Assembly: GCA_027859055.1 (NCBI GenBank)
Contig: JAQIBO010000379.1
Coordinates: forward strand, 1-37,554
DNA: 37,554 nt
Direction: 5' to 3'
Source of the DNA: Spirochaeta sp.
Lineage (GTDB): Bacteria; Spirochaetota; Spirochaetia; DSM-27196; Alkalispirochaetaceae
Part shown: positions 16,174-37,362 of the stretch, in pieces
Position numbering within the stretch: the stretch's first letter is position 1
Layout: the number at the start of each line of letters is the position of its first letter
The notes under the pieces: model-generated
Database searches by the model: none
What the model was told of the DNA's origin: nothing
The model's input: the letters and a program-made list of their open reading frames with translations, nothing else
Translations under genes and position numbers: made by a program

Positions 16174-18078
16174 GTGAGAGTACGATCACAGATCAATTTG
16201 CTGGTTATCATCCTGTTACTGTCCATCGGTCTCATTACCGTCGGATTATTCGTTGCCAACACCGTTGCCGCCCGGGTTGATAACCTCGAGCTCGCCGTAA
16301 GCCAGGCGCTACAGGATGTCTATCGTCTGACCTCGATTAACAAGGATCTCATGGTTACCGAGATGCCCCTTGACCAGGTAATCGACGGGTGGAAGACGGC
16401 GATCGAGGACCTTGACGAGGCTCTTACCGCCCTCCCGGACCATCCCGGCACGGCGTATATAAGCGACAGTGTTGGCGAATCCCTGGAGCGGACCCTGTCG
16501 GTCTGGAGTCTGTCGCTGTCCCGGCTGGAAACCGCCCGGGAATCCTTTGATCTGCTGATCGAAAGTGACTCGATTCACGATTTCCGGAAGACCGGCCTTA
16601 TCGAGCTTGCAGCATATCTGGAAGAGGAGGAGCAGGTTGCGACGTTACTCTTCCAGGTTGAGCAACTCACGCGGGACCTCGAGTCGTTTGATCTGTCCGC
16701 TCGGGACCTGGTTGTCGGCAATTTGCAGGAGGTCGCCGGAGCGGTGGCGATTCAGGCGGATACGATCCGGACAACCGGGCGCCGCGCCATTTTACTTTTG
16801 ACCGTTATCGTTGTTGTCGGATCGTTTGTATTTGTGTATCTCTTCGGTCGCAGCCTTTCCCGCCGGGTGGGGGCGATAGAGAACGTGATGGAGCGCGTTG
16901 CGGCCCAGGATATGACGGTCCGCGCAGCGACGAGCGGAAACGATGAGATCGCCGGCCTGGGCCGGTATCTCGACAAAGGTCTCGACGTTATCGCCGCGTT
17001 CATCAGCTCGGTACGACGCGCCGTGACGGAGAACGATGAACTCAAGGACGGACTCTCGTCGGGGTCCGCCGAAAGCGCCTCTGCGGTGAATGAGATCAGT
17101 CATAATATCGATTCGATCCGCACCGAGTTTGACCGCCTCAACGGGCGCATTGAGCAAAGCTCGATCGCCGTTGGAGATATCGATACCAAAATCAAGTCGC
17201 TGAACCACGATATCTCACAACAGAACACGATTATCGAAGACAGCACCGCGTCGTACGAACAGATGGACAGCTCGATTCAGCAGGTAGCGCAGCTTTCGGT
17301 TGACCGGCGCGAGGCGGCGGAGTCGCTGGTTCAGGTTATCCTTGATGGTGGCGAAAAGATCACCACCACCAACAGCGTGATCGATTCCGTCACCGCCGAG
17401 GTGGACGATATCCTTGAGATTATTGAAATCATAAACGCCGTCGCCGAGCAGACCAATCTGCTCTCGATGAACGCTGCGATTGAGAGTGCCCACGCCGGCG
17501 AAGCGGGGAAGGGGTTTGCGGTTGTTGCGGAAGAGATTCGCAAACTCGCTGAAAGCACCTCGGAAAACGCGTCCAAAATTGACCGGTTGCTCAAGTCGAT
17601 TACCGGCAAGATCGGTGAGGCGGTGGACGCAAGCCGTGCCGGAGCGGATACGTTTGAGACGATCCGGAAAGACGTCGGGCTCTTTCGGGAGGCGATGCAC
17701 GAGATCGTGGAAAATATGCAGACCTTGAGCGAGGGAAGCGCATCAATCGTTGGAACAACGCAGCGTCTGTCGGAGATCACCGGGTCGGTTACCGACGCTG
17801 CCGGAACGATCGCCGCCAACACCGATCAGATAAACGCGGCGATGGGGGACGCTTCCAACATGTCAAGTTCCATCGCCAACGGTATCAAAGAGATCGATAT
17901 CGGTGCCAAGGAGATTCTCACCGCGATTACCGATATCTCGCGCCTGTCCGACGAAAACCGCGAGCGCATGCAGGAGCTTGCGGAGTTGATTGACCGGTTT
18001 GATCTCGCCGACGAGCAGTCTGACAAGCAGTCTGTGGATACCCCCGGTCAGAGTACCGGGGTCACGGAGGCGGAGTGA
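16174..18078 (+). CDS. methyl-accepting chemotaxis protein
   Basis: TM helices plus HAMP and the signalling tip '[51 protein letters not shown]'. Confidence 0.96.
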   Translation: MRVRSQINLLVIILLLSIGLITVGLFVANTVAARVDNLELAVSQALQDVYRLTSINKDLMVTEMPLDQVIDGWKTAIEDLDEALTALPDHPGTAYISDSVGESLERTLSVWSLSLSRLETARESFDLLIESDSIHDFRKTGLIELAAYLEEEEQVATLLFQVEQLTRDLESFDLSARDLVVGNLQEVAGAVAIQADTIRTTGRRAILLLTVIVVVGSFVFVYLFGRSLSRRVGAIENVMERVAAQDMTVRAATSGNDEIAGLGRYLDKGLDVIAAFISSVRRAVTENDELKDGLSSGSAESASAVNEISHNIDSIRTEFDRLNGRIEQSSIAVGDIDTKIKSLNHDISQQNTIIEDSTASYEQMDSSIQQVAQLSVDRREAAESLVQVILDGGEKITTTNSVIDSVTAEVDDILEIIEIINAVAEQTNLLSMNAAIESAHAGEAGKGFAVVAEEIRKLAESTSENASKIDRLLKSITGKIGEAVDASRAGADTFETIRKDVGLFREAMHEIVENMQTLSEGSASIVGTTQRLSEITGSVTDAAGTIAANTDQINAAMGDASNMSSSIANGIKEIDIGAKEILTAITDISRLSDENRERMQELAELIDRFDLADEQSDKQSVDTPGQSTGVTEAE

Positions 18079-19766: not shown

Positions 19767-20777
19767 TCACACGGGAGGCCGGGCGACGTAGTCGTCCGCT
19801 TTCAGCAGCATTTTCACATACTGAGCGCGACGGTAGGTCCACTTGTCCGAGGTCTTTTCGACGCTCAGTTTTCCGCGGAACGCGTCAAGATCGGCGTAGC
19901 CCTTGCGGTCCATCCACGCTTCGATATCCTTGAGGATCGTTCTGATCACATCGACGCGGTTGCGGTACAGCGTGCTGACCGCCTGGAATACATCCGCTCC
20001 GGCAAGCAGCGTTTCGATGGCGTCCTCACCGGTATGAATCCCGTTGGATGCACAGAGCGAACCTTTGAGCTTCCCGTGCAGCAGACCCGCAAAACGCAGG
20101 GCCAGGCGGTGATCATTCGAGGTGCTCAGGTTGAACGGATACTGCCCGGTTTCCTTTTCGATATTGAAACTGGGATGGAACAACCGGTTGAACAGGACGA
20201 ATCCTTCCACACCGACCGCGTCCATCTGGTTGATGATCTCGATGGGGCTGGTATAAAAGGGGCTGAGCTTCACAGAGATCGGTACCTTCACCTTGGATTT
20301 AACCCGTTTCAGGGCGTCGATCTGATCCGCCTCGATTTCAGACGCGGTCTTGCTTCCGTCAATCGGAATCGCAAAAAAGTTGAGTTCCAGCGCGTCGACG
20401 CCGGTCTCTTCCATCTTGACGGCCCATTCGCTCCACGTTTCCGGGTTGATGCAGTTGAGACTCCCGATAACCGGCATTTCAACCGCCTCTTTGGTCTTCT
20501 TCACCCACATCAGATGCTCGTCGGGACCGCTGTGTTCAACCTCGGGAAACAGATCCTGAATCTCTGAATCGAGGTTGTCGCTGACGGTCAGCTCTTCCTC
20601 GAGACGCATCTGCTGCAGCTGAATCTGCTCTTCAAACAGACTTTGAATGACGATCGCCGCGGCGCCGGCATCTTCGATACGTCGAATTGCATCCATATGG
20701 GCGGTCATGCTGCACGCACCGACAACGAACGGGTTTTTCAGGGGAATCCCCATATACTTTGATTGCAGATTAGCCAT
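19767..20777 (-). CDS. dihydroorotate dehydrogenase-like protein
   Basis: Start refined to ATG 20777 (MANLQSKYMGIPLKNPFVVGACSMTAHMDAIRRIEDAGAAAIVIQSLFEEQI) preceded by AAGGAG; TIM-barrel FMN features 'VPISVKLSPF', 'ASNGIHTGEDAIETLLAGADVFQ'. Confidence 0.9.
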   Translation of the reverse strand: MANLQSKYMGIPLKNPFVVGACSMTAHMDAIRRIEDAGAAAIVIQSLFEEQIQLQQMRLEEELTVSDNLDSEIQDLFPEVEHSGPDEHLMWVKKTKEAVEMPVIGSLNCINPETWSEWAVKMEETGVDALELNFFAIPIDGSKTASEIEADQIDALKRVKSKVKVPISVKLSPFYTSPIEIINQMDAVGVEGFVLFNRLFHPSFNIEKETGQYPFNLSTSNDHRLALRFAGLLHGKLKGSLCASNGIHTGEDAIETLLAGADVFQAVSTLYRNRVDVIRTILKDIEAWMDRKGYADLDAFRGKLSVEKTSDKWTYRRAQYVKMLLKADDYVARPPV

Positions 20778-20921
20778 GCATTGCTCCTTGGTTTGGCTTT
20801 TGGACAATTTTCATAGTATTGTAGTGGCAGGTACGAAAGGCGTCAATGAAACGCCGCTTCGAATTCGATGGGGGGGAATCCCCACGCAGACCTATATGCC
20901 ACAGGCAGAGGAGTAGTGACT

Positions 20922-21308
20922 ATGGAAATCGTACGATTTGGTTCCGATGATATTGAAAACGCATTGAGCAAGATGGGTGACAGCCAGCTTGATGATCTCG
21001 CATTCGGGGCGGTTCAGCTCGATAGCGAGGGGAAAATTCTCTCGTACAACGCCGCGGAAAGCGAAATTACCGGGCGAAACGCTGACGACGTGATTGGAAA
21101 GAGCTTTTTTACCGAGGTTGCACCGTGCACCAACACGGACGAGTTCTACGGGAAGTTCAAGGAAGGTGTAGACTCGGGCAATCTCAACAGCTTGTTTGAG
21201 TATGTCTTTGACTACCAGATGACCCCGACCAAGGTCCAGGTCCACATGAAAAAGGCGCTGCAGGGCGACAGCTACTGGGTATTTGTGAAGCGGATCTCCC
21301 GCGGCTGA
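20922..21308 (+). CDS. pyp: photoactive yellow protein (PYP) blue-light receptor, 128 aa
   Basis: [128 protein letters not shown]; collinear with Halorhodospira halophila PYP without gaps (about 93/125 identical against my recalled sequence). Y42, E46, T50, R52, C69, M100 all present. Start refined from 20868 to ATG 20922 (purine-rich RBS upstream). Confidence 0.97.
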
Positions 21309-21320
21309 CGGGAATACGGG

Positions 21321-21337
21321 GGCGCCGTCGCGGCGCC
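21321..21337 (+). other. intercistronic hairpin between pyp and the ligase
   Basis: GGCGCCG-TCG-CGGCGCC, 7-bp perfect stem, 8 nt before the ligase ATG at 21346. Confidence 0.65.
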
Positions 21338-21345
21338 GCTGTTTC

Positions 21346-22560
21346 ATGGAACGGTTGATTAAAACACTTGGTCCCGGCGACCTTTTTCGGGTTGTCCGGG
21401 ACATTTTTATCGACGAGCTGGCGCGCAGCCGGGGCACCGGGTTTGACCGGGACGCCGCCCGGGATTGGAATCGGGATACAACTGTTCGCGAGAACGGGCT
21501 CGCCCTGGACTCGCTTGAGCGGTTCACCCTTGCGGGACGTCTCAACGAGACGTTTTCCCTGTTTGAAAGCGGCGTGGAAGACAACCTCCTGCGGACGCAG
21601 ACCCTTGGAGATACCGTTGACGTAATTCGCGCGGGACTGGACCATGCGGCGCCGGCGATCGCCTTTTACTCCGGGGGCACCACGGGAACTCCCCGGCCGC
21701 GGCGCCATGCGACGGAACTGCTGGAACAGGAGATCGCCGTACTGACGGAGATCTTCGCCGACCGCCGGCGCGTTATCGTCACGGCACCGGTCCACCACAT
21801 TTACGGCTTTCTTTTCGGCGTGCTTTTGCCCCGCGCCCTGGGCGTGCCGGCGGTCGACGCCCAGGGGACGTTCCTGTCCGGACCGCGCGCACCCGGCGCG
21901 CGTGATCTGGTGGTATCTGTTCCCTTTCTGTGGGAACGCCTGCAGCCGTCGATTTCCCGGTGGGGGCGAGACGTGTGGGGAACAAGCTCCACAGCGCCTT
22001 TGTCAGCGGACGTCGCCGACGGAAGTTGCGCGGCGGGGCTTGCCCGGCTGATCGAGATCTACGGCTCCAGCGAGACCGCCGGTATCGGCAGTCGTGACCG
22101 CTGCGACAGCCCCGGTCCGTTCACGCTCTTCCCGTACTGGCACGCTGTCCGGGACGTGCCCGTCGGTGAGACTGATCACGTATTACTGCGGGACCCGCCC
22201 GGCGGGGGAGAACCGCTCCGCTACGAGATCCCCGACCGGCTGCACTGGCACGATGAACGCCATATCGAACCGCTTGGTCGCCGCGACGCGGTTGTCCAGG
22301 TGGGGGGAGAGAACGTGGACCTTGAAGCGCTGCGTCGTCGTATCGTGGAAACGGTACCCGGGTGTACTGATTGCGCGGTGCGACTCGGTGAAAACGGGCG
22401 CATCCGGGCGTTTCTGGTGCCTGCGCGGACCGAGACGCTGACGCCGGAGGGTGTGGGAAGCGTTCTGCGGGAACGGTTGGCCGCCGCGGCGCTGCCGGCG
22501 ACTATTTCGATCGGTACCGAACTGCCCCGTGACGCCACCGGCAAGGTGACAAGCTGGTAG
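21346..22560 (+). CDS. 4-coumarate-CoA ligase-like enzyme of the PYP-activation type (AMP-binding) with N-terminal ACP-like segment
   Basis: AMP-binding motifs 'AFYSGGTTGTPRPRRH', 'IEIYGSSETAGIG', 'RRDAVVQVGGENVDLEALRRRI', 'LPRDATGKVTSW'; directly downstream of pyp. Residues ~1-98 contain 'NGLALDSLERFTLAGRLNETF', resembling an acyl carrier protein. Confidence 0.88.
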   Translation: MERLIKTLGPGDLFRVVRDIFIDELARSRGTGFDRDAARDWNRDTTVRENGLALDSLERFTLAGRLNETFSLFESGVEDNLLRTQTLGDTVDVIRAGLDHAAPAIAFYSGGTTGTPRPRRHATELLEQEIAVLTEIFADRRRVIVTAPVHHIYGFLFGVLLPRALGVPAVDAQGTFLSGPRAPGARDLVVSVPFLWERLQPSISRWGRDVWGTSSTAPLSADVADGSCAAGLARLIEIYGSSETAGIGSRDRCDSPGPFTLFPYWHAVRDVPVGETDHVLLRDPPGGGEPLRYEIPDRLHWHDERHIEPLGRRDAVVQVGGENVDLEALRRRIVETVPGCTDCAVRLGENGRIRAFLVPARTETLTPEGVGSVLRERLAAAALPATISIGTELPRDATGKVTSW

Positions 22561-22593: not shown

Positions 22594-23766
22594 ATGGACC
22601 GCGAATTTGCCCGTCTTTTAGATCGGCTTCCGGAATTTCAGGCGGCGGCTCGCGACATAAGCGAGATCCTGCTCACCAATCTTGTGATGGCCTCGGAAAT
22701 ACCCGCTCCGACGTTTGATGAGCAGATGCGGACGCAGTTTCTCCTGGACCGGTTAAACGAGTACGAGCTGCAGAACACCTCCACCGATGAAGCGGGAAAC
22801 GCGCTGGGAATACTGCCCGGGAAGAGTGGTGACGGGAACATTCTGGTCGTTGCCCATATGGACACTGTATTTCCCGCCAAGGTTGATCATACCGTTTCAA
22901 TCGAACCGAACGTGGTTTCCGGGGCGGGAATCGGCGACGACAGTCTGGGCCTGGCGGCGATGATGACACTGCCGGTACTGTTGAACCGGCTGGGAATCGA
23001 GCTCAAGAACAATCTCATTCTCATGGGTTCCGCCCGGAGCCTTGGTCGCGGCGACATCGAAGGTATCCGCTTTTTCCTGGACAACAAAAGCGTCCCGATC
23101 TCCACCGGAATTTGCGTCGAGGGCGTCAAACTTGGCCGCTTGAGTAACGCCTCAAACGGCATGCTCCGGGGCGAGATCCACTACCGCGTACCGGAAGAGT
23201 ACGACTGGACCCGCTTTGGTGCCGGCGGGGCGATCGTCAATATCAACGACGTCATCAACCGGATCCTGGAAATTCCCCTTCCCCGGCGTCCGCGGACATC
23301 AATCGTGCTTAACAACGTGGAGGCCGGGGCCTCATTTAACACGATTCCCCGTCAGGCGCGGCTTCAGTTTGAAATTCGCAGTGAATCCGGCGAGATCGTG
23401 CGGACCCTCGGCGACCAGATCGGTGATATCGCCGCAGAGACCAGCTCCCAGACCGGGGCGGAGGTCACATTCAACGTGCTGGCGCGACGCCAACCGGGGG
23501 GAATCGCCTTTTCCAACCCGCTGGCGTCTCACGCCCGGGCGATTATCAAAGCGCTGGGCGTCCACCCGCGCATCTCTCCCAGCACATCCGAACTGTCGGC
23601 GTTTATCGACAAAGGAATTCCGGCGGTGACGATCGGCATTACCGAGGGCGAACACCACAACGAAGAAAACGAACGGCTGGCGATTGAGCCGATGTACCTG
23701 GGCCTTGCGCAACTGGTGGGGCTCCTGCTTGCAGTCGACGGAGGCTACCTCGATGGATCTGAATGA
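22594..23766 (+). CDS. M20-family metallopeptidase
   Basis: 'NILVVAHMDTVFP', 'VVSGAGIGDDSLGLAAMMTLPVLLNRL', dimerisation-like region, 'VTIGITEGEHHNEENERLAIEPMYLGLAQL'. Confidence 0.82.
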   Translation: MDREFARLLDRLPEFQAAARDISEILLTNLVMASEIPAPTFDEQMRTQFLLDRLNEYELQNTSTDEAGNALGILPGKSGDGNILVVAHMDTVFPAKVDHTVSIEPNVVSGAGIGDDSLGLAAMMTLPVLLNRLGIELKNNLILMGSARSLGRGDIEGIRFFLDNKSVPISTGICVEGVKLGRLSNASNGMLRGEIHYRVPEEYDWTRFGAGGAIVNINDVINRILEIPLPRRPRTSIVLNNVEAGASFNTIPRQARLQFEIRSESGEIVRTLGDQIGDIAAETSSQTGAEVTFNVLARRQPGGIAFSNPLASHARAIIKALGVHPRISPSTSELSAFIDKGIPAVTIGITEGEHHNEENERLAIEPMYLGLAQLVGLLLAVDGGYLDGSE

Positions 23767-24730
23767 ATGGCTCAAGACGCATACCTTTCACCATTCCGAG
23801 TTTCGTGACCTCCGGGCGCTGGTGGAGGCGAAAGAACGCGCGGGGGTAACGATATCCCTGTGTATTCCCACCCTCAACGAGGAAAAAACGATCGGGAAAG
23901 AGGTGGTGATCTTCCGCAGCGAACTGATGCAGCGCTATCCCCTGGTGGATGAGATCGCGATTGTCGACTCCGGCAGCACCGACAAAACGCTGGAACCCGC
24001 CGCGGACTTCGGCGCCGACACCTATCTGGCCGCGGATATACTGTCCGATCTGGAACCGAAACGCGGGAAAGGTGAAAACCTGTGGAAAGCGATCCATCAG
24101 CTCACCGGTGATATCATCGTGTACATCGATGCGGACATCAAGAATATCCATCCGCGCTTTGTGTACGGGCTGGTAGCGCCGCTCATCCACAACCCGGAAA
24201 TGCAGTACGTCAAAGCGTTTTACGACCGCCCCCTGGCGTTCAGTCACGGCATTCGACCCAGCGGCGGCGGGCGCGTCACGGAGATCCTGATTCGACCGCT
24301 CTTTTCGCTTTTCTTTCCGGAGCTCACCGCGATCATCCAACCCCTGTCGGGGGAGTACGCGGTGCGCCGGCAGGTGCTGGAGCAGATCCCGTTCCCGATC
24401 GGGTACGGCGTGGAAACGAGCCACCTGATCGACGTCTACAGCCGCTACGGCATGGACGCTTTCGGTCAGACCGACCTGGACCAGCGGGTCCATCGCAACC
24501 AGCCCACGCGCAGCCTTGGAAAGATGGCGTTCGGCATTCTGCAGACGTTTCTGTCCCGGACGGAAAAACTGGGCGTCATCAAGGAGCTGCCGGACATATC
24601 CACCATTCTGCGGCAGTTTCAGGTCAATGACCGAATCTTTGAAACGGTGGAACACGAAATCGTCGAAGAGGAGCGCCCGCCGATGGAAACGGTAGCGGCG
24701 TATACGGAACGACGGAAAGGACTGGTATGA
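23753..24730 (+). CDS. gpgS: glucosyl-3-phosphoglycerate synthase (GT81)
   Basis: Start refined to ATG 23753. 'SLCIPTLNEEKTIGKEV', 'EIAIVDSGSTDKTLEPAADFGADTYLA', 'KRGKGENLWKAIHQLTGDIIVYIDADIKNIHPRFVYGLVAPL', 'GGGRVTEILIRPLFSLFFPELTAIIQPLSGEYAVRRQVLEQIPFPIGYGVE' parallel actinobacterial GpgS. Confidence 0.93.
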   Translation: MDLNEWLKTHTFHHSEFRDLRALVEAKERAGVTISLCIPTLNEEKTIGKEVVIFRSELMQRYPLVDEIAIVDSGSTDKTLEPAADFGADTYLAADILSDLEPKRGKGENLWKAIHQLTGDIIVYIDADIKNIHPRFVYGLVAPLIHNPEMQYVKAFYDRPLAFSHGIRPSGGGRVTEILIRPLFSLFFPELTAIIQPLSGEYAVRRQVLEQIPFPIGYGVETSHLIDVYSRYGMDAFGQTDLDQRVHRNQPTRSLGKMAFGILQTFLSRTEKLGVIKELPDISTILRQFQVNDRIFETVEHEIVEEERPPMETVAAYTERRKGLV

Positions 24731-25593
24731 CACCGATCACATTCAGCAACGTCTCATTCACCTATCCGGAGGTTGATGAACCGCAACCAGCACCGGCGGA
24801 GCCGCGTACAGACGAACCTGACGTTCCCGCCCCGGATCCGGTCTTTACCGACCTGAGCGTGGAACTCCCCGGTGGCTGTACCTTCCTGGTGGGCCCCAAC
24901 GGAATTGGAAAGAGTACCCTGATGCTGCTGGCCGGAGCGCGCCTGTTCCCCGAAAACGGAACCGTGACGATCGGCGGGCGGAACACCCGCGAGTTTGAAA
25001 ACGCCGGCTTTGAGCCGGAGCTGGAGGTGGAACGCAACGAGCTGGTCTCCTTCGTGTATCAGAACATGGAGTTTGAGACGGTCGAGCCGCTGGGCGAAAT
25101 ACTGCCGCTGGTTGCTGAAAACGGACCCAACCCTGCCGCGGCCGCGACAGTGTATGACGAACTTGTTGAGGTCGCGGGGTTGCGGGAACGGCTCTCGGTG
25201 CGAATGCACGAACTCAGTAAAGGCGAGATGCAGCGGGCGATTCTGGCGATGAGCGTGCTCTACCAGTCTCCGGTTATCATGATGGATGAACCGGTTTTTG
25301 CGGTGGAGCCGACGCAGGCGGATCGCCTGTTCGGGTGGCTTGCCGACCGGTCTGCCGCCGACGGTATCGATATTTACGCCAGCGTCCACGACGTGGAGAT
25401 GGCGAAGGCCCACGCACGCCACATCGTCCTGATGCACACCGACGGAACGGTGCAGGTTGGCGACCCGGAGGAGCTGCTGGCCCGGGACAGCCTGGAGACC
25501 GCATTTCGGGCGCCCTTTGATACGCTGTACCAGCGGCAGAACCTGTACCGCGAGTTGTTGAGAAAAAGCCTCGGCGACGAGGCGGGGAGGTAA
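24727..25593 (+). CDS. ABC transporter ATP-binding protein (no adjacent permease)
   Basis: Walker A 'GPNGIGKST', signature-like 'LSKGEMQRAI', Walker B 'VIMMDEP', H-loop 'SVHDVEMAKAHA'; overlaps gpgS by 4 bp. Confidence 0.9.
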   Translation: MTPITFSNVSFTYPEVDEPQPAPAEPRTDEPDVPAPDPVFTDLSVELPGGCTFLVGPNGIGKSTLMLLAGARLFPENGTVTIGGRNTREFENAGFEPELEVERNELVSFVYQNMEFETVEPLGEILPLVAENGPNPAAAATVYDELVEVAGLRERLSVRMHELSKGEMQRAILAMSVLYQSPVIMMDEPVFAVEPTQADRLFGWLADRSAADGIDIYASVHDVEMAKAHARHIVLMHTDGTVQVGDPEELLARDSLETAFRAPFDTLYQRQNLYRELLRKSLGDEAGR

Positions 25594-28379: not shown

Positions 28380-30467
28380 ATGAAGCAGGAAAACGGGTCA
28401 GGAGAAACCTCGTCAGAGACCACAGGCTTCCGATCGATCGGTACAAAACTGGTCCGCTATTTCGCGCTTTTTGCGCTCGTTTTTGTCGTTCTGGTTACCG
28501 TTGTTCAGCTGTTGATGGAGTACAGTCGGGAGAAGGATCATATACGGGAACACCTTGCGTATGTGGAAACGGGGTATGGCGCGATTATCGCCGGAAACGC
28601 GTACCTTCCGGACCCGCAAGCCCTTGATATGACCCTGGAGGCAATTCTCAGATCTCAGGGGATTGAATTTGTGGAGGTGCGAGAGCGCTCAGCGGATGGT
28701 GAGGAGTCCCTGGCTGAGGCCGGGAACCCCGATACATCGTCGGACATGGTGAAAGTCTTCACTCTCCCGGAAGGCATCATCGTTGAAGTGCGGGCCTCTA
28801 CAAGCAATCTTGTAGCGTTACTGTGGAGCAGGGCGTACGTCTTTCTGCTTGTTGGACTCCTGATCGCCGTTGCATTTGCTTCGGGGGTGCTCGCCATTGT
28901 CCACCGTTACCTTGTGATTCCGGTTGTAAAACTCGCCGGGTTTGCCCGAACCCTCGAAGTGGAGTCCGCGGGTGAGTCTGGTGCCCTCGATCTGCCACGG
29001 GGACGGTTTCATCGGCGGCGGGACGAGCTGGATGTTCTGCGCGAAGCGTTTGAGGACCTGCAAACGCGCCTCAAGCGCGAGATGACGGAGCGGGACGAGG
29101 CAAACGCGTTGTACCGAGCCCTGTTTGAAAACACCCATGTGGCGATGCTCGCGATCAACCCCGAAGACGGACGCATCATCCGGGCGAACGGAGCCGCCGA
29201 GAAATTCTATGGCTGGACGCGCGATGAGCTTTCGGCGATGTCAATCCAGGAAATCAACACCCTCCCGCCGGACGAGGTGCAACGAAAGATGGAATCCGCC
29301 CGCATGTCCGGTCAGGGGTATTTTGAGTTTCGCCATCGCGTGTCCGACGGCTCGGTCCGGGACGTTGCGGTCCACTCGGGAACCGCCGCTGTCGATAGCG
29401 AGGCGGTGCTTCATTCGGTCATCGTCGATATTTCCGCGCAAAAAGCCGCCGAACGGGAACGGGATTTGACAGCGTTCGGCATGGACCGGTCTGGCCTCGG
29501 GGTTATGAGGATTCGGGAAGATGACGCGGTCGTGGAAAGCGCGAACACCACGGCGTGTTCGCTTCTCGGTTACAGCCCGGCAGAACTGATCGGGATGCAG
29601 GTGTACCACTTTGACGCGAGTATGGATCCGAAATCGTGGGTGCAGCACCGTCGGGGGGTGAGGCAGAAACGACAATACCAATTTGAAACGATCCACCGGA
29701 GACGGGATGGCACGGAATATCCCGCCGAAGTCACCGTGGCCTATATCGAGTACGGTGGACAGGAGTACTCATTTTCCTTTTTCCAGGACATCACCGGGAG
29801 GAAAGAGGCGGAAGACCGGCTGGTCGGGTTGCTTCGTGAGAAAGAGGTGCTGCTGCGGGAGGTGCACCACCGGGTCAGAAACAACCTGCTGGTGATGAGC
29901 TCTCTTATCAATCTCCAGACCGCGAGGATTCACAGCGTCATGGAGGCGCAAAACGCGGTGGAGAAGATCCGCGACCGTATTCGTGCCATGTCATTGGCCT
30001 ACAGTGCAGTTGACGACAGCAATGATCTTAGCAAGATCAATCTTGCCTACTACTCCGAAGGACTTGCGGTGTACCTGCAAGACGAGTATGCACTCGATAC
30101 GCCGGTTGCGGTAACCGTAGATCCCAGCGAAGTACGAGCCGATCTCACCAAAGCGATCCCTTTTGGACTCATCCTGAATGAGCTCGTGACCAACAGTCTC
30201 AAACACGCTTTTACCGGCACGGAAGAGGGACGGGTTTCGATCTCATTCAGTCCGCAAGACGGCGCGATGGTCGAGGCCGTTGTCGCCGATACCGGCGCGG
30301 GTATTCCTGAAAGCATCCTCCAGGCGAAAGAAAAGCCCCTCGGCCTCATGCTGATCGATAGACTCACCGACCAACTGGGCGGGACGGTATCATACGATGT
30401 GCGCCACGGGACCAGGGTGTCGGTGACGTTTCGGGTTTCGGATATTGAGGTGGGTTCTGATGAGTGA
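28380..30467 (+). CDS. membrane sensor histidine kinase, PAS domains, HisKA_2 type
   Basis: Two TM segments, PAS-like regions ('LYRALFENTHVAMLAINPEDGRIIRANGAAEKFYGWT'), 'LREVHHRVRNNLLVMSSLINLQTARI' HisKA_2 box, 'LILNELVTNSLKHAF' and 'VADTGAGIPE' ATPase. Confidence 0.93.
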   Translation: MKQENGSGETSSETTGFRSIGTKLVRYFALFALVFVVLVTVVQLLMEYSREKDHIREHLAYVETGYGAIIAGNAYLPDPQALDMTLEAILRSQGIEFVEVRERSADGEESLAEAGNPDTSSDMVKVFTLPEGIIVEVRASTSNLVALLWSRAYVFLLVGLLIAVAFASGVLAIVHRYLVIPVVKLAGFARTLEVESAGESGALDLPRGRFHRRRDELDVLREAFEDLQTRLKREMTERDEANALYRALFENTHVAMLAINPEDGRIIRANGAAEKFYGWTRDELSAMSIQEINTLPPDEVQRKMESARMSGQGYFEFRHRVSDGSVRDVAVHSGTAAVDSEAVLHSVIVDISAQKAAERERDLTAFGMDRSGLGVMRIREDDAVVESANTTACSLLGYSPAELIGMQVYHFDASMDPKSWVQHRRGVRQKRQYQFETIHRRRDGTEYPAEVTVAYIEYGGQEYSFSFFQDITGRKEAEDRLVGLLREKEVLLREVHHRVRNNLLVMSSLINLQTARIHSVMEAQNAVEKIRDRIRAMSLAYSAVDDSNDLSKINLAYYSEGLAVYLQDEYALDTPVAVTVDPSEVRADLTKAIPFGLILNELVTNSLKHAFTGTEEGRVSISFSPQDGAMVEAVVADTGAGIPESILQAKEKPLGLMLIDRLTDQLGGTVSYDVRHGTRVSVTFRVSDIEVGSDE

Positions 30468-31527
30468 TGAAGCTGTGCCGCAGGACAAATTGATCATGAT
30501 AGTCGATGATGAGGTCGTTATCGGACTGGACATCATGCATCTTTTCGAAGAGCGGGGTTATCGCGCAGTGACCGCCTCCTCCGGCGAAGAATGCGAGCGG
30601 CAGATCGCTGCGGGGGACGTTCCCGACCTGATACTCATGGATATTAATCTGGGTCCTAACCGCATGGATGGTCGGGAGACGACGCGACGCGTCCAAGAGT
30701 ATGCCGATATTCCGGTGGTGCTCCACTCCGCATATACTGACCGCGCGACGATTCAGAAAACGCGTGACATGACCAAGTACGGCTACGTCCACAAGGTACC
30801 GGGAAACGGAGAGTTTATTCTGGCCACGGTGGAGATGGCGTTCAGACTCCGAGAGAGGGAACAGATGTATCGGGATCTTTCGGCGCATATCAACGACGTC
30901 CGGGAGGAGCAGAACGCCTTCATGGCCCGTGAGATTCATGACGACGTGGGCCAGTCGATCGTAGCGCTCAAGATGAACCTGACGATGCTGGAACGAGCAA
31001 CCGCCCCGGCGGAGACAACGCCGATTATCGCAACTATGCGGGAGGCCCTCGACGCTGCATCCTCGAAAATCCGCACGCTTATCCGGGAATTGCGCCCGCC
31101 CGTTGCCGACACTGCAGACATCGTGGAAGCCTTGCAATGGCACATCCGGGAATTCGAAAAGACGTTCTCGGTAGCGACGCAATTCACCAGCGAAGTTGAG
31201 CGGGTGATCCTGGGACGGGACAAGTCACTGTCCGTTTTCCGTATCGTCCAGGAAGCGCTCACCAACAGCGTGCGTCACGGAAACCCTTCCGAAATATCGG
31301 TCGAAGTGGGGCTTGAGGAATCATCACTGGTTGTACGGATCGCCGACGACGGGTATGGGTTTGTCCCGGCGGAAAACGCCTCAAAAGAGTCATTTGGCAT
31401 ACTCGGCATGCAGGAACGCGCGCAGCGGTGGAACGGGTCCGTGACGATCGAAAGCAACTCCCGGACCGGCACCGTTGTCACGGCGATGGTACCGCATGAT
31501 TTCGAACACTTGGAGGCAGATTCGTGA
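30460..31527 (+). CDS. receiver domain - HisKA_3 histidine kinase hybrid
   Basis: N-terminal receiver 'MIVDDEVVIGLDI...LILMDINLGPNRMDGRETTRR...YGYVHK', then 'MAREIHDDVGQSIVALKMNLTMLERA' and HATPase 'RIVQEALTNSVRHG'. Start refined to ATG 30460, overlapping the upstream stop. Confidence 0.93.
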   Translation: MSDEAVPQDKLIMIVDDEVVIGLDIMHLFEERGYRAVTASSGEECERQIAAGDVPDLILMDINLGPNRMDGRETTRRVQEYADIPVVLHSAYTDRATIQKTRDMTKYGYVHKVPGNGEFILATVEMAFRLREREQMYRDLSAHINDVREEQNAFMAREIHDDVGQSIVALKMNLTMLERATAPAETTPIIATMREALDAASSKIRTLIRELRPPVADTADIVEALQWHIREFEKTFSVATQFTSEVERVILGRDKSLSVFRIVQEALTNSVRHGNPSEISVEVGLEESSLVVRIADDGYGFVPAENASKESFGILGMQERAQRWNGSVTIESNSRTGTVVTAMVPHDFEHLEADS

Positions 31528-32156
31528 TCCGTGTCGTTATTGCCGATGACCACGAGCTTATCAGAAACGGATTCGCCGGTCTGGTGAGTGGTGAACCGGA
31601 TATGCAACTCCTGGGAGCCGCACGGACCGCCCAGGAATTGAATGACCTTCTCCGCCACGAAACACCTGACGTCATCGTTCTCGACATCGGGTTGCCCGAC
31701 CGCAACGGGTTGGACGTACTGAGGGACATTCACGCATCAAACACCACCGTCCGGATTCTTATCCTCAGTATGCACCCGGAAGAACGCTACGCCCAGCGAG
31801 CTATCGCAGCGGGAGCCTCGGGGTATCTCACCAAAGACGCCGCTTCGGACGAGCTTGTCAACGCCATCCGCCGGGTGTACGGACGCGGATACTACGTTTC
31901 TGAGGCGCTGGCGGACGAGCTGATGAGCGACCTGGGAAACCGGGATGCCTTGCTCCCGCATACCACCCTTTCCAACAGAGAGTACGAGCTGTTGCTTCTG
32001 ATCGGAGAAGGGCGAACGATGCGCGAGGCGGTGGAACGGCTCCACCTAAGCATCAATACGGTTAACTCCTATCGACGACGACTGATGCAGAAGATGCAAA
32101 TGCGCTCAACCTCGGAACTCATTCGGTACGTTCTGGATAATCACCTCATAGAATAA
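31524..32156 (+). CDS. NarL/FixJ-type response regulator
   Basis: 'VVIADDHELIRNGFAGLV', 'DVIVLDIGLPDRNGLDVL', 'GASGYLTKDA', LuxR-type HTH 'LSNREYELLLLIGEGRTMREAVERLHLSINTVNSYRRRLMQKM'. Confidence 0.95.
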   Translation: MIRVVIADDHELIRNGFAGLVSGEPDMQLLGAARTAQELNDLLRHETPDVIVLDIGLPDRNGLDVLRDIHASNTTVRILILSMHPEERYAQRAIAAGASGYLTKDAASDELVNAIRRVYGRGYYVSEALADELMSDLGNRDALLPHTTLSNREYELLLLIGEGRTMREAVERLHLSINTVNSYRRRLMQKMQMRSTSELIRYVLDNHLIE

Positions 32157-32165
32157 CCCCCCGAA

Positions 32166-32207
32166 TGCCACGAAAAATGTGGCAAGAAAATCACAGATTG
32201 TGTGGCA
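32166..32207. repeat. cluster of TGCCAC / GTGGCA motifs (one inverted, two direct)
   Basis: TGCCAC 32166-32171, GTGGCA 32179-32184, GTGGCA 32202-32207, in the RR/MCP intergenic region. Confidence 0.5.
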
Positions 32208-32284
32208 TACAACTCGGTGCGTTGGCGTCAGAATCCAGAAGCGTAATCGTAAGAATATGAAAGCACATAGGATAAGGAGCTGGT

Positions 32285-34378
32285 ATGCTGAAAAACCTGA
32301 AAATGGCGCTCAAGATGGCGCTTGGGTTCGGACTTCTAATCGTATTACTCGCAATCGTCGGCGGGTTTGCGGTAGTAAACCTGTTACAGATTCAAGGGGA
32401 ATCAATCAGTCTCCGTGATGAGTACGTGGCCGAAGTTGAGATCGCAAACAACCTGGAGCGAAATTCGCTTCAGACGATGTACGCCAATCGCGGGTATTCG
32501 TTGAGTTTTGACGACGCGTTTTACACACAGGCAAACGAATACTTCGCCGATGTACAGCGCTATCTTGGTGAGGCGCGGGCGCTTTCCGAGCAGTATCCTG
32601 GGTTGACTGCTCTCGCCGGGCAGGTGGTTACCGCCGAAGAAGCCGCGGCAACGTACGGGAACCTTGCGAATCAGACCAAAGTTCTCATCGATGATATCAA
32701 GGCCAACCGGACGATAAACGATACCGCGTCCGCTACGACTGTCTCCACGATCGCCACGTATCTGGACGGTCAAAATGGGAAACTGGATGAGGAAATCGCC
32801 GCCGGTGCTTCAGTGGCGGATCTTGAGACGAGGGTCTTCAAGATCAATCGGATAAATGATGTCATCGATATCGTCAACAACGCGCGCGTCTCCAACTTCA
32901 AGGGGCAACTGGAAAACGATACCGACGTACTCGACGACGGGATCGAAGAACTCGACCGTATTCCCGCAATGCTTGATGAGATTCGCGAGTTGACCACCGG
33001 GGCGGACGACCACGCCTCCCTCAATCAGGTCGAAGAGAGCGTGACGAGGTATCGAGACGCGGTCCAGGCTATCCATGACGGCTACGCCGAGCTAGCAACG
33101 CTCAACCAGGACCGCGGAGTTGCTGCGGATAACGTCCTGGCGGCGGCGCAAGAGGTCGCAACGGCGGGTGTTGCAGCCACGAACGAAATCGCCAATGGTG
33201 TAGTTTCGGCCGTCCAGACGTCGGTCACTGCGGTTGCGATCGGTATCGTGATCGCGATAATCCTTGCCATTATCGTTGCCTTTGCGATCACCCGGGCGAT
33301 CACCGGTGCGCTTGCCAAAGGAGTGGCTTTCGCAACGGAACTCAGCAACGGAAATCTCAACGCCACGCTTGATGTCGACCAAAAAGATGAGATAGGGAAT
33401 CTCGCCCAGGCGCTAAAGACGATGTCGGCGCGGTTGCGGGAGATCGTCCAGGATATCCGTTCCGCCTCAGACAACGTCACCTATGGCTCCGACCAGCTGA
33501 GCCAGTCGTCGCAACAGATGAGCGAAGGTGCGACAGAACAGGCCGCCAGCGCGGAAGAGGTCTCCAGCAGCATGGAGGAGATGAGCTCCAACATCCGGCA
33601 GAACGCCGACAACGCGCTCCAGACCGACAAGATCTCTCAGAAGAGCGCCACCGACGCTGAAGCAGGTGGCCAGGCGGTCCGGGAGACGGTCAACGCGATG
33701 AAGGAAATTGCAGAGAAAATCACGATCATCGAAGAGATCGCCCGCAACACCAACCTCCTTGCTCTGAACGCGGCGATCGAAGCGGCGCGGGCCGGTGAGG
33801 CCGGGAAAGGGTTTGCCGTTGTCGCCAGTGAGGTGCGCAAGCTCGCCGAACGAAGTCAGACCGCTGCCGGTCAAATCAGCGAGCTGTCCGGCCGTTCCGT
33901 GGCGGTAGCCGAGAAAGCCGGGGAGATGCTGGAGCAAATCGTTCCGGACATCAAACGTACCGCGGAGCTGGTACAGGAAATATCGGCCGCCAGTAACGAA
34001 CAGAACAGCGGTGCGGAGCAGATCAACTCGGCCATTATTCAGCTGGACACGGTGATTCAACGCAACGCCAGCGCCTCCGAGGAGATGGCCTCCATGTCCG
34101 AGGAACTCAGCGGCCAGGCAGAACAGCTGCAGAGCACCATATCGTTTTTCAAGGTGGGCGAGAACGGTGGGTCCGGTAGCGGACGGCCGTTGGCGCTGGC
34201 GCCACCAAACGCGGGTGCTCATCACCAGCAGGCCTCGAATACGGGCGGCCCGGAGAAAAAACCTGCCCAGCAGCGGGGGAAAGAGGCTGGCCCGGCGCAG
34301 ACGAGACAGGAACAGGTGTCTCTGGACTCCGATCAACACGAGTCGGATGATCTGGACGGCGACTTCGAAAGCTACTGA
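32285..34378 (+). CDS. methyl-accepting chemotaxis protein with C-terminal linker and terminal aromatic pentapeptide
   Basis: '[51 protein letters not shown]' tip; N-terminal TM and helical sensor; C-terminus ...DGDFESY; RBS AAGGAG. Confidence 0.96.
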
Positions 34379-34407
34379 GAACGAGGCAGGATAACAGGAA
34401 AAATACG

Positions 34408-34902
34408 ATGGCAACAAATCAGTTTTTAACGTTCACCCTGGCGGAAGAACAATACGGGGTTGAAGTAGTTCAGGTGCGAGAGGTGCTCTCGGAGATACCG
34501 CTCACGGTCATCCCACGGATGCCGGACTACATGAAGGGAGTAATAAACATCCGGGGCAGCGTTGTCCCGGTGGTGGACCTGCGGACCAAGTTTGGTCTGC
34601 CTGAGACGGAGAAGACGGTGGACACCAGTATTATCGTTATGGATCTCCATACAGGTGAGAGCACCGTCACGGTGGGCTGCCTGGCCGATTCCGTGCAGGA
34701 GGTGGTGGACATCGCCGAAGACACTATTGAGCCGCCTCCCACGATCGGTACGTCTGTAGACGCCCGGTTCATTCGGGGGCTGGGACAGAAGGATGAGCGG
34801 TTTGTCATTATTCTGGATATCGACCTGGTGTTTCAGGCCGAGGCTGAAGGACTCGCGGGGGTACAGGAGGCACCGGCGACGCGCGCATCGGTTTCAGAAT
34901 GA
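34408..34902 (+). CDS. cheW: CheW chemotaxis coupling protein
   Basis: 'FLTFTLAEEQYGVEVVQVREVLSEIPLTVIPRMPDYMKGVINIRGSVVPVVDLRTKFGL'. Confidence 0.96.
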   Translation: MATNQFLTFTLAEEQYGVEVVQVREVLSEIPLTVIPRMPDYMKGVINIRGSVVPVVDLRTKFGLPETEKTVDTSIIVMDLHTGESTVTVGCLADSVQEVVDIAEDTIEPPPTIGTSVDARFIRGLGQKDERFVIILDIDLVFQAEAEGLAGVQEAPATRASVSE

Positions 34903-34921
34903 GTCGCCGGCGTCTCCGCTG

Positions 34922-35950
34922 ATGTTGTTTTTCCGTTGGTTGATGATCAAGCGAGTTGCATTCCTCCTGGGAGTCCTCGGATTGTCTGGGGGCTTCGTCG
35001 GCGCGGAGACGATTCTCGTTGTCCAAACCATGCCGGTACCGGCGATAGAACACCATCGTGCGGCGTTTCTCGATACGCTGTCGACGATGATTCCCGCAGG
35101 ACGCCATGAGATTGTGGAGTTTCAGGCGAACGGTGATTACCAGCGGGCAGTTGATTTCTTCCAGAAGCAGAACGCCACGGAAAGGCCGTCGCTGGTGGTT
35201 ACCTTTGCTACATTGGCGACCCAGGCGGCCGTCTCGGTCTATGGACCGGACAGCGGCGTTCCAATTCTCTTCGCGGTTGTCGTCGATCCGGTCGGGGCGG
35301 GCATCGTTACCGAAGTCGGTGTTCCAAGTGGTAGCAACGTTGCCGGAATCGTGTACACCGTGGACCGGAGGGTCAAAATCGCCACGGCCCTTGATATTCT
35401 CGCGACCGGATTAGGGTTTGATAGTGTAACCGTCGGGGTGCCGCACTCGAGTTACCCGTCGTCCCGAGACGACGCAGCCTCCCTCCGACGGGCAGCGGAG
35501 TCCTTCCCGAAAATCGAGTTCCTGGAGGGTGAGTTCGACTATGCACCTGTTCCTGATGGGATACCGGTGATGCGTGAACAGATGGCTTCTGTGATTCGCG
35601 ATTTGGAGTCACGCGTCGACTGGTGGTGGGAGGCGACAGGCCCGATGGGTGAACGCCCCGAGAGCGTGTCCGACATTCTGATCGCGAGCGACCGCTCCGT
35701 ACTGTTCGCCATCCATTCCGACGGTGTTGCAGACGGTGGGCTGTTCTCGATTTCACCGGATCCACTCGCGTCGGGTCAGAAGCTCGCGGGTATGGCGCGT
35801 GAGATCCTGGACGGCGCTGCCCCCGGTTCCTTTCCGGTGTCGGCGGCACCCGACTTCAGGGCAGCCGTGAACGTGGATACCGCGCTCTCCGCCGGGCTGG
35901 TGGTGCCATCCTACCTGCTCGAACTATCCGGGGAGCACGTGTACCGGTGA
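34922..35950 (+). CDS. ABC-type substrate-binding protein (ABC_sub_bind / TrpX-like), orphan
   Basis: Signal-peptide-like N-terminus 'MIKRVAFLLGVLGLSGGFVGAETILVVQTMPVPAIEHHRAAFLDTL', 'PSLVVTFATLATQAAVSV', 'PILFAVVVDPVGAGIV'. Start 34922 or 34943. Confidence 0.8.
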   Translation: MLFFRWLMIKRVAFLLGVLGLSGGFVGAETILVVQTMPVPAIEHHRAAFLDTLSTMIPAGRHEIVEFQANGDYQRAVDFFQKQNATERPSLVVTFATLATQAAVSVYGPDSGVPILFAVVVDPVGAGIVTEVGVPSGSNVAGIVYTVDRRVKIATALDILATGLGFDSVTVGVPHSSYPSSRDDAASLRRAAESFPKIEFLEGEFDYAPVPDGIPVMREQMASVIRDLESRVDWWWEATGPMGERPESVSDILIASDRSVLFAIHSDGVADGGLFSISPDPLASGQKLAGMAREILDGAAPGSFPVSAAPDFRAAVNVDTALSAGLVVPSYLLELSGEHVYR

Positions 35951-37362
35951 AGCTGTCCCTTCGAATCATTCTGGTTGTCATCGCCGTTCTCGTTCTTCTC
36001 TCGGCCGTGCTCGCGACAATCTCGGTGGATGAGTTGCGCCGCTCCTCGGAACGCCATTTGGAGGCGTATCTGACGCTTGGTCTTGATCAGTACGTACGAG
36101 AGTACCCGCAGCGCCTCGCCGAGCTTCTCGAGCAACACGGGTTGGAGAATATCGATTCCTTCGTTGCGTCATACCAGACGGACGCGATCCAGGCTGCAAC
36201 CGAGGCGGAACTCGAAATGGGTGCCCGGATCGGGCTATCCGCGATGTCGACAGGAGAGTTCCTTGCGCCGGGTGCGGGTATCGCAACTCATGTCAGCGAT
36301 CATATACGAAGCGGCAATCTGGACGAGGGAACGATCCACTTTGATGAGGAAGCGAGGACCTACTACGTCTACGACGCGTTTGAGCCGTGGGGATGGATCG
36401 TGGTAGCCGCCGCTCCCGATCACGCGGTCCGTGACGAGATTCAAAGCGTACTACTACGAACCACCATGACAACCGTGACAATCGTGGGACTTGCCGCACT
36501 TGTGCTGTTTCTTGGGCTCCGGCGCTTCTTCGTTGCACCCGTGTTACGTATCGCCGCGGCCGCCCGCTCGTTGCCTGACGGGAGCTGTGTCAGCCTGGAA
36601 GAGACGTCGCGGGGGGACGAGCTGGGCGACCTGGCGAATGATATAGTCGCCGCCGGCGAGACGATCAGGCGGGCACAGCAGGAGCTCTCTGCCACAAATC
36701 GGGACCTGGAACGGACCGTCAACGAGCGGACGGCGGCGTTGAATGAAGCTCTCGCCCGGCAGAAAACGCTCGTCCGCGAGGTTCACCACCGTGTAAAGAA
36801 CAATATGAACGTGGTCTATGCCTTGCTGGATTTGCAGAAACGAAACGCCGCGACGTCGCAGTTTGTGGAAGCCCTTTCGGACGTCCAGCGTCGTATCGCC
36901 GCAATGGCCCTGATACATGAACAACTGTATCGTGGTGACGGTGGAAACTCTCAACTGGACGCATCGGAATATATCGGGGGCGTGATTGAACAATTGCAAC
37001 GATCGTTTCCAACCGAGGAGTCCCACGTCGAGATCGAGTCGGTAATCCAGCCGGTTACGCTCAGCACCGAAATCGCAATGCCCTGCGGTCTCATCATCAA
37101 TGAGCTGGTAACAACTGCGCTGAAGTACGCGTTCGTCGGTCGGTCTTTCGGGAAGGTGATCGTACGATTTGGGTCAACCGTCGACGGGTCGCTCCGTCTC
37201 ACCGTAGCGGATGACGGTGTGGGAATCTCTGGTGACCCATCCTCGAGTACGATGAAGACTGACGGAATCGGCACGGAGCTCGTTGCTGCTCTGGCCTCTC
37301 AACTGCATGGGACAATTTCCAGGACGTCGCACGGCGGATTGACGGTGGGAGTCACTTTTTGA
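35947..37362 (+). CDS. sensor histidine kinase, HisKA_2 type, with extracytoplasmic sensor region
   Basis: GTG start overlapping the SBP stop; two TM segments flanking a ~160-aa region; 'LVREVHHRVKNNMNVVYALLDLQKRNAA', 'LIINELVTTALKYAF', 'VADDGVGISG'. Confidence 0.92.
   Translation: MKLSLRIILVVIAVLVLLSAVLATISVDELRRSSERHLEAYLTLGLDQYVREYPQRLAELLEQHGLENIDSFVASYQTDAIQAATEAELEMGARIGLSAMSTGEFLAPGAGIATHVSDHIRSGNLDEGTIHFDEEARTYYVYDAFEPWGWIVVAAAPDHAVRDEIQSVLLRTTMTTVTIVGLAALVLFLGLRRFFVAPVLRIAAAARSLPDGSCVSLEETSRGDELGDLANDIVAAGETIRRAQQELSATNRDLERTVNERTAALNEALARQKTLVREVHHRVKNNMNVVYALLDLQKRNAATSQFVEALSDVQRRIAAMALIHEQLYRGDGGNSQLDASEYIGGVIEQLQRSFPTEESHVEIESVIQPVTLSTEIAMPCGLIINELVTTALKYAFVGRSFGKVIVRFGSTVDGSLRLTVADDGVGISGDPSSSTMKTDGIGTELVAALASQLHGTISRTSHGGLTVGVTF

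Follow-up and report, generated by a model that had tools for sequence, protein, structure and literature searches.

The question raised by this locus is whether a spirochaete may carry a photoactive yellow protein (PYP) of the type described in Halorhodospira halophila and, if so, how such a receptor would be loaded with its p-coumarate chromophore. PYP serves as a model in the study of light sensing and of protein dynamics, and the fluorogenic tags known as FAST derive from it; the attachment of its pigment in vivo has so far been taken as a simple CoA-ligase step. The window considered here, i.e., the whole stretch of 37,554 nucleotides that was analyzed, is contig C69 of a MAG (G000) of 4.38 Mb, 91% complete and with 6% contamination. 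Our analysis indicated that it very probably encodes an H. halophila-type module for blue-light reception, of predicted function, in an uncultured free-living spirochaete.

The receptor gene itself was clearly identified. The pyp gene (20922..21308, + strand) encodes a single-domain PYP of 128 aa. Its mechanical open reading frame is longer and starts at 20868, but the ATG at 20922 was retained as the start, because relatives align from this position and an RBS-like AGAGGAG motif (20907..20913, + strand), found by reading of the sequence, lies 8 nt upstream of it. In a profile search, the protein reached 203.7 bits with TIGR02373, the PYP equivalog model, above its curated cut-off of 143.05 bits; it matched PYP entries of the PDB (1.2e-61) and shared 74.4% identity over 125 columns with the H. 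halophila PYP (1NWZ). All of Y42, E46, T50, R52, C69, T70, Y98, and M100 were found in it, as in the 59 canonical PYPs out of 59 compared by alignment, and Cys69 (1NWZ numbering), the residue that carries p-coumarate as a thioester in PYPs, is encoded at 21126..21128 (+ strand). The residues Cys69, Tyr42, and Glu46, which serve to define a PYP in PMC9664959, are indeed all present. The earlier note had read this 128-aa frame, from Y42, E46, T50, R52, C69, and M100, as a bona fide PYP of the chromophore-binding type, and this reading is borne out by the profile score and the complete pocket, binding itself being predicted; the coordinates given for the gene pair, 20922-22560, proved exact, chance being excluded. 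The product of 20922-21308 is a canonical, H. halophila-type PYP, for which the sequence predicts p-coumarate binding and a photocycle.

Downstream of pyp, after 37 bp, lies the gene of a pyp-linked p-coumarate ligase, pCL (21346..22560, + strand; 404 aa). Between the two, a GC hairpin of seven pairs (21321-21337), which could reduce the expression of the ligase relative to PYP, proved no more stable than shuffled sequences (z -1.0). Residues 14-401 of pCL aligned with TIGR02372, at 267.5 bits and below the cut-off of 334.7, so we class the protein just as a divergent pyp-linked ligase. This shortfall was ruled out as a case against a ligase, since the pyp-linked enzymes of Halochromatium and Rhodothalassium also fall under the cut-off (295 and 319 bits, respectively), while Halorhodospira-type ligases score above it. 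Full-length alignment, adenylation motifs, and adjacency to pyp are found together in pCL, and activation of p-coumarate is predicted. The adenylation domain, of the ANL type and recognized by PF00501, its motifs, and Foldseek, is shortened (21655..22557, + strand): its borders are the A3 loop YSGGTTGTPRP and the A10 lysine K400, and the PF00501 match does not start before profile position 159 of 384. By Foldseek, this part resembles benzoate- and 4-chlorobenzoate-CoA ligases. The pyp-pCL pair was present in 11 out of the 11 canonical spirochaetal genomes found (four of the same genus and seven others). The ligase proposed in the earlier note thus stood, in view of the full-length TIGR02372 alignment and the linkage to pyp, but that note had overlooked both a carrier-like domain in this enzyme and an aromatic lyase unlinked to it.

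The first hundred or so residues of pCL stand in place of the usual start of an adenylation domain. In the light of AlphaFold and Foldseek, residues 1-103 (21346..21654, + strand) constitute a putative carrier-protein-like domain. The AlphaFold model of the full-length enzyme (mean pLDDT 93.4) places helices at residues 10-32, 56-70, 78-83, and 87-100, helix II beginning at Ser56, and the N-terminal domain folded alone (AF2, pLDDT 93.5) agrees with it. When this isolated model was compared with the PDB by Foldseek, the best 17 matches were all ACP or PCP, with weak E-values (0.07), the best one being AcpP in complex with FabD (probability 1.00, rmsd 2.2 A, TM 0.76 by target); other carrier matches included PfACP, a Helicobacter ACP (TM 0.79 by target), ApeE from aryl-polyene synthesis, and DltC. 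The predicted structure displays the four helices of a carrier fold, with Asp-Ser-Leu opening helix II. In line with this, Asp55-Ser56, the predicted phosphopantetheine site, where helix II begins (codons at 21508..21513, + strand), is invariant in 53 full-length pyp-linked pCLs out of 53, almost always followed by Leu-Glu, and over the N-terminal stretch 30 aligned pyp-linked ligases share 23-66% identity with the window copy. The motif is also found in the Halorhodospira-type pCLs that exceed the TIGR02372 cut-off, most of which are encoded beside pyp. In two lower-scoring, more distant ANL homologues that are not pyp-adjacent, the N-terminus is ordinary and the domain absent.

Sequence methods alone do not establish this domain, its fold being read from the predicted structure. 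Searched against the 30 pCLs, PF00550 gave a best E-value of 0.0056 and matched four of these 30 members, the window copy being without a match; on a Halorhodospira-type pCL it reached 14.2 bits, below the cut-off of 20.8. We therefore call the domain carrier-like and not a member of PF00550. In HH comparison with real ACPs, the score was no better than that of a reversed-column control, and a PDB profile search with the domain retrieved mostly T4 lysozyme, by chance; we do not count these comparisons in favor of the carrier reading. An AcpS-type phosphopantetheinyl transferase (PPTase), as present in most bacteria, was found in each of the 10 pyp genomes tested. In the open literature on PYP in connection with carrier proteins or phosphopantetheine, no title or abstract dealt with such a domain, and the word "carrier" is absent from the text of the 2025 PYP review. 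The carrier-like domain of pyp-linked ligases thus seems unrecognized, its novelty being provisional.

As regards mechanism, we give about even chances to a carrier-mediated step in the loading of PYP by pCL. The enzyme would activate p-coumarate with ATP into p-coumaroyl-AMP, the p-coumaroyl group would pass from AMP to a phosphopantetheine on Ser56 of its own carrier, and from this phosphopantetheine thioester to Cys69 of apo-PYP, after which the loaded PYP would photocycle; free p-coumaroyl-CoA might be a side or alternative product. The carrier-protein fold and the invariant serine make this route the most likely one, rather than that of a plain 4-coumarate-CoA ligase. The chromophore may reach PYP by way of a carrier protein, in the manner of NRPS or aryl-polyene synthesis, and not through free CoA alone. 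It is an equally balanced proposition that the whole pyp-linked family, Halorhodospira included, consists of carrier-adenylation fusions which place p-coumarate onto their own phosphopantetheine and then onto Cys69 of PYP. We infer each of these elements, i.e., chromophore binding, phosphopantetheinylation, and the transfer route, as well as the tyrosine specificity of the lyase considered below.

The reading that best survives beside this one, with a chance that we put appreciable although short of even, takes pCL as an ordinary p-coumarate-CoA ligase whose released p-coumaroyl-CoA acylates Cys69 unaided, the carrier-like N-terminus being a structural remnant that replaces the ANL N-terminal subdomain. 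The 2025 review indeed states that p-coumarate is attached to CoA by pCL and cites activity data reported for the H. halophila enzyme, and the similarity of the adenylation part to the aryl-CoA ligases mentioned above points in the same direction. In a remnant, however, one would expect the phosphopantetheine serine to be lost, whereas Asp-Ser persists throughout enzymes as divergent as the 53 compared. Should loading through the carrier be true, this domain in the loading enzyme would alter the simple CoA-ligase picture of PYP loading, could explain why the pCL gene travels with pyp, and would point to ways of improving the loading of PYP in vivo.

The anatomy of the module is apparent from its sequences, pocket residues, gene order, empty-site synteny, predicted fold, and invariant serine. 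Besides the window genome, three of the six same-genus genomes (G003, G004, and G006) possess PYP; with a single locus that is cleanly occupied or empty, gain, loss, and co-occurrence become testable. In the four pyp genomes, a dihydroorotate-dehydrogenase-like (DHO) gene, conserved in 8/8 family genomes and located at 19767..20807 (- strand) in the window, is divergent to pyp and constitutes the left boundary of the pyp-pCL site, while an ABC-type ATPase (24727..25593, + strand) follows pCL as the right boundary. An M20-type hydrolase and a glucosyl-3-phosphoglycerate-synthase-like (gpgS-like) gene (22594..24730, + strand) are intercalated in the window genome and in G003; within the genus they are common to G003 only, and we therefore consider them as outside the module. 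In the pyp-less genomes G001, G002, and G005, the DHO and ABC genes are directly divergent, roughly 150-190 bp apart, and the gap is empty. Comparison of synteny within the genus found no link with PYP for the downstream M20, gpgS-like, ABC, and macro-domain genes. The occupied or empty site fits loss as well as gain, the four-gene genus tree being poorly resolved.

At the scale of the phylum, canonical PYPs above the cut-off were found in 8 of the 394 Spirochaetota genomes drawn, and about 18 others had weaker, Leptospira-type copies. The two types form separate groups (100/100) in the PYP tree, and the window PYP lies in the canonical group, outside the Leptospira-type (clade B) group. Leptospira-type PYPs keep E46 and C69, possess T50 in 1 of 18 cases and R52 in none, and match TIGR02373 under its cut-off. 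In one genome of another class, two PYP genes of this type were found within 1.3 kb (G098:C4:213711-214939, L086). Previous studies place Spirochaetota PYPs, especially those of Leptospira, in clade B (PMC9664959), attribute 5.9% of 984 PYP homologues to this phylum (PMC12826048), and report a purified L. biflexa PYP (457 nm), also entered in a table of studied PYPs (PMC9664959; PMC12826048). A spirochaetal PYP as such is not new, having been reported in 2022 and 2025, and the novelty attached to it by the earlier note was overstated; some canonical spirochaetal PYPs may already be listed in the data sets of these two studies. The words "photoactive" and "blue light" were not found in the genome paper of Salinispira pacifica (G211), one of the carriers of a canonical PYP.

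The acquisition of the pair by horizontal transfer, also suggested earlier, was not supported as stated. A recent import of pyp-pCL from halophilic Gammaproteobacteria would account for a window PYP that is 73-74% identical to those of Halomonas and Pseudomonas, nearly as much as to those of its own genus (70-78%), and for canonical spirochaetal rows that fall into more than one group in unconstrained trees. We nevertheless hold it to be unlikely, since a single group of all canonical spirochaetal PYPs was not rejected by the AU test (p = 0.254), since the four same-genus copies group together both for PYP (92/91, in a tree that rests on few columns) and for pCL (100/99), at one conserved site, with pCLs that diverge to 47-56%, and since presence/absence within the genus is equally compatible with loss. 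This grouping, the one site, and the divergence of pCL indicate that the entry of the pair into the genus was old.

As for the p-coumarate itself, its source would most likely be tyrosine, via an unlinked lyase. The MAG contains one PF00221 aromatic lyase, on contig C375 and unlinked to pyp, which shares 71-72% identity with the lyase that adjoins pyp divergently in G385. In the lyase tree, it falls into a 100/99 clade with the pyp-adjacent lyases of five spirochaetes, Idiomarina, and Massilia. It has the MIO motif ASG and, as in TAL, a Gln (NQD) at the position of the HAL Glu, according to the published Gln-versus-Glu rule (PMC3992019). Its selectivity site reads Tyr-His, versus His-Leu in proven TAL, the His being thus missing from the first position, and we therefore class it only as a pyp-associated aromatic lyase, of putative tyrosine specificity. 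A lyase of the His-Leu type, sister to the R. sphaeroides enzyme, was found in G003 and G004; in these two congeners, it is located beside ilvD (L101:8359-9966 and L103:5876-7393). It thus seems that the lyase in use varies among the pyp-bearing species of one genus. Of the four pyp genomes of the genus, three had a non-HAL lyase, versus none of the three pyp-less ones; a HAL-type lyase was present in G005 (no pyp) and G006 (pyp), and no lyase in G001 and G002. G006 (L104 / L105) has pyp and pCL yet only the HAL-type lyase, which is truncated where its contig ends, an exception that could be due to an incomplete genome, p-coumarate uptake, or HAL promiscuity. The contig of the window-genome lyase also encodes a short LOV protein with a GRNCRFLQ motif (L099 (G000:C375):5775-6455, - strand), the best PDB match of which is a blue-light photoreceptor LOV chain (1.1e-26) and which is likely a second blue-light receptor. 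The flanks of the lyase (L099, 9310-14730) comprise a REC-PAS-PAS protein and, in divergent orientation, a HisKA_2 sensor kinase accompanied by a response regulator, neighbors that may provide a regulatory link to p-coumarate or light.

With respect to signaling output, the comparison of genus synteny revealed no signaling gene specifically tied to pyp at the locus. Signaling through the chemoreceptor MCP (16174-18078) located 2.8 kb upstream of pyp is conceivable by analogy with Leptospira PYPs, for which it has been proposed and which adjoin chemoreceptors devoid of sensory domains, according to PMC9664959. It is improbable here, however, because the MCP-galM-DHO block also occurs in the pyp-less congeners G001, G002, and G005, and the MCP at 16174 was ruled out as a specific partner of PYP. 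Further downstream, the window holds a dense signaling cluster (28380-37362), with a PAS-HisKA_2 kinase, a hybrid kinase, a LuxR-type response regulator, a second MCP with CheW, and another HisKA_2 kinase. That the contig is a contaminant of the MAG, as the 6% figure might suggest, is hardly credible in view of the DHO-pyp-pCL order and of a DHO neighbor 80-85% identical, both shared with the same-genus G003, G004, and G006. The host is a free-living spirochaete, a spirochaetal genome having been anticipated as probable in the earlier note, with conserved pyp synteny in same-genus genomes, G003 and G004 among them, and with Salinispira pacifica in the same taxonomic order.

The operon of H. 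halophila is organized as pyp-pCL-TAL, and its PYP structure is 1NWZ. The window resembles it by a PYP that is 74% identical, by identical listed pocket residues, by pCL directly downstream, and by the carrier-like N-terminus that Halorhodospira-type pCLs share with the window enzyme. It differs from it by its spirochaetal host and by a lyase that is unlinked and of the Tyr-His rather than the His-Leu type; the carrier-like domain is absent from the published accounts of the H. halophila pCL examined. With R. sphaeroides TAL (2o6y), the C375 lyase has in common the fold family, the MIO motif ASG, and the Gln (NQD), but it bears Tyr-His at the His89-Leu90 selectivity site. AcpP, PfACP, ApeE, and DltC display the same four-helix layout as the predicted pCL domain, with Asp-Ser-Leu opening helix II, whereas the latter forms the N-terminal part of a fusion with a shortened adenylation domain and is too divergent for PF00550 cut-offs. 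The Leptospira PYPs, which PMC9664959 assigns to clade B, share the phylum, Cys69, and Glu46 with the window PYP, but form a separate group (100/100), lack Thr50 in nearly all cases and Arg52 in all, and remain below the TIGR02373 cut-off. Closer to the window are Salinispira pacifica (G211) and G138, which we take to be probably Spirochaeta africana: the taxonomic order, the canonical PYP, the pCL architecture, and the lyase clade are alike, while the lyase is divergent beside pyp in these two and unlinked in the window genome. Uncultured free-living spirochaetes thus carry a canonical PYP, of a type other than that of Leptospira, together with its ligase and a lyase.
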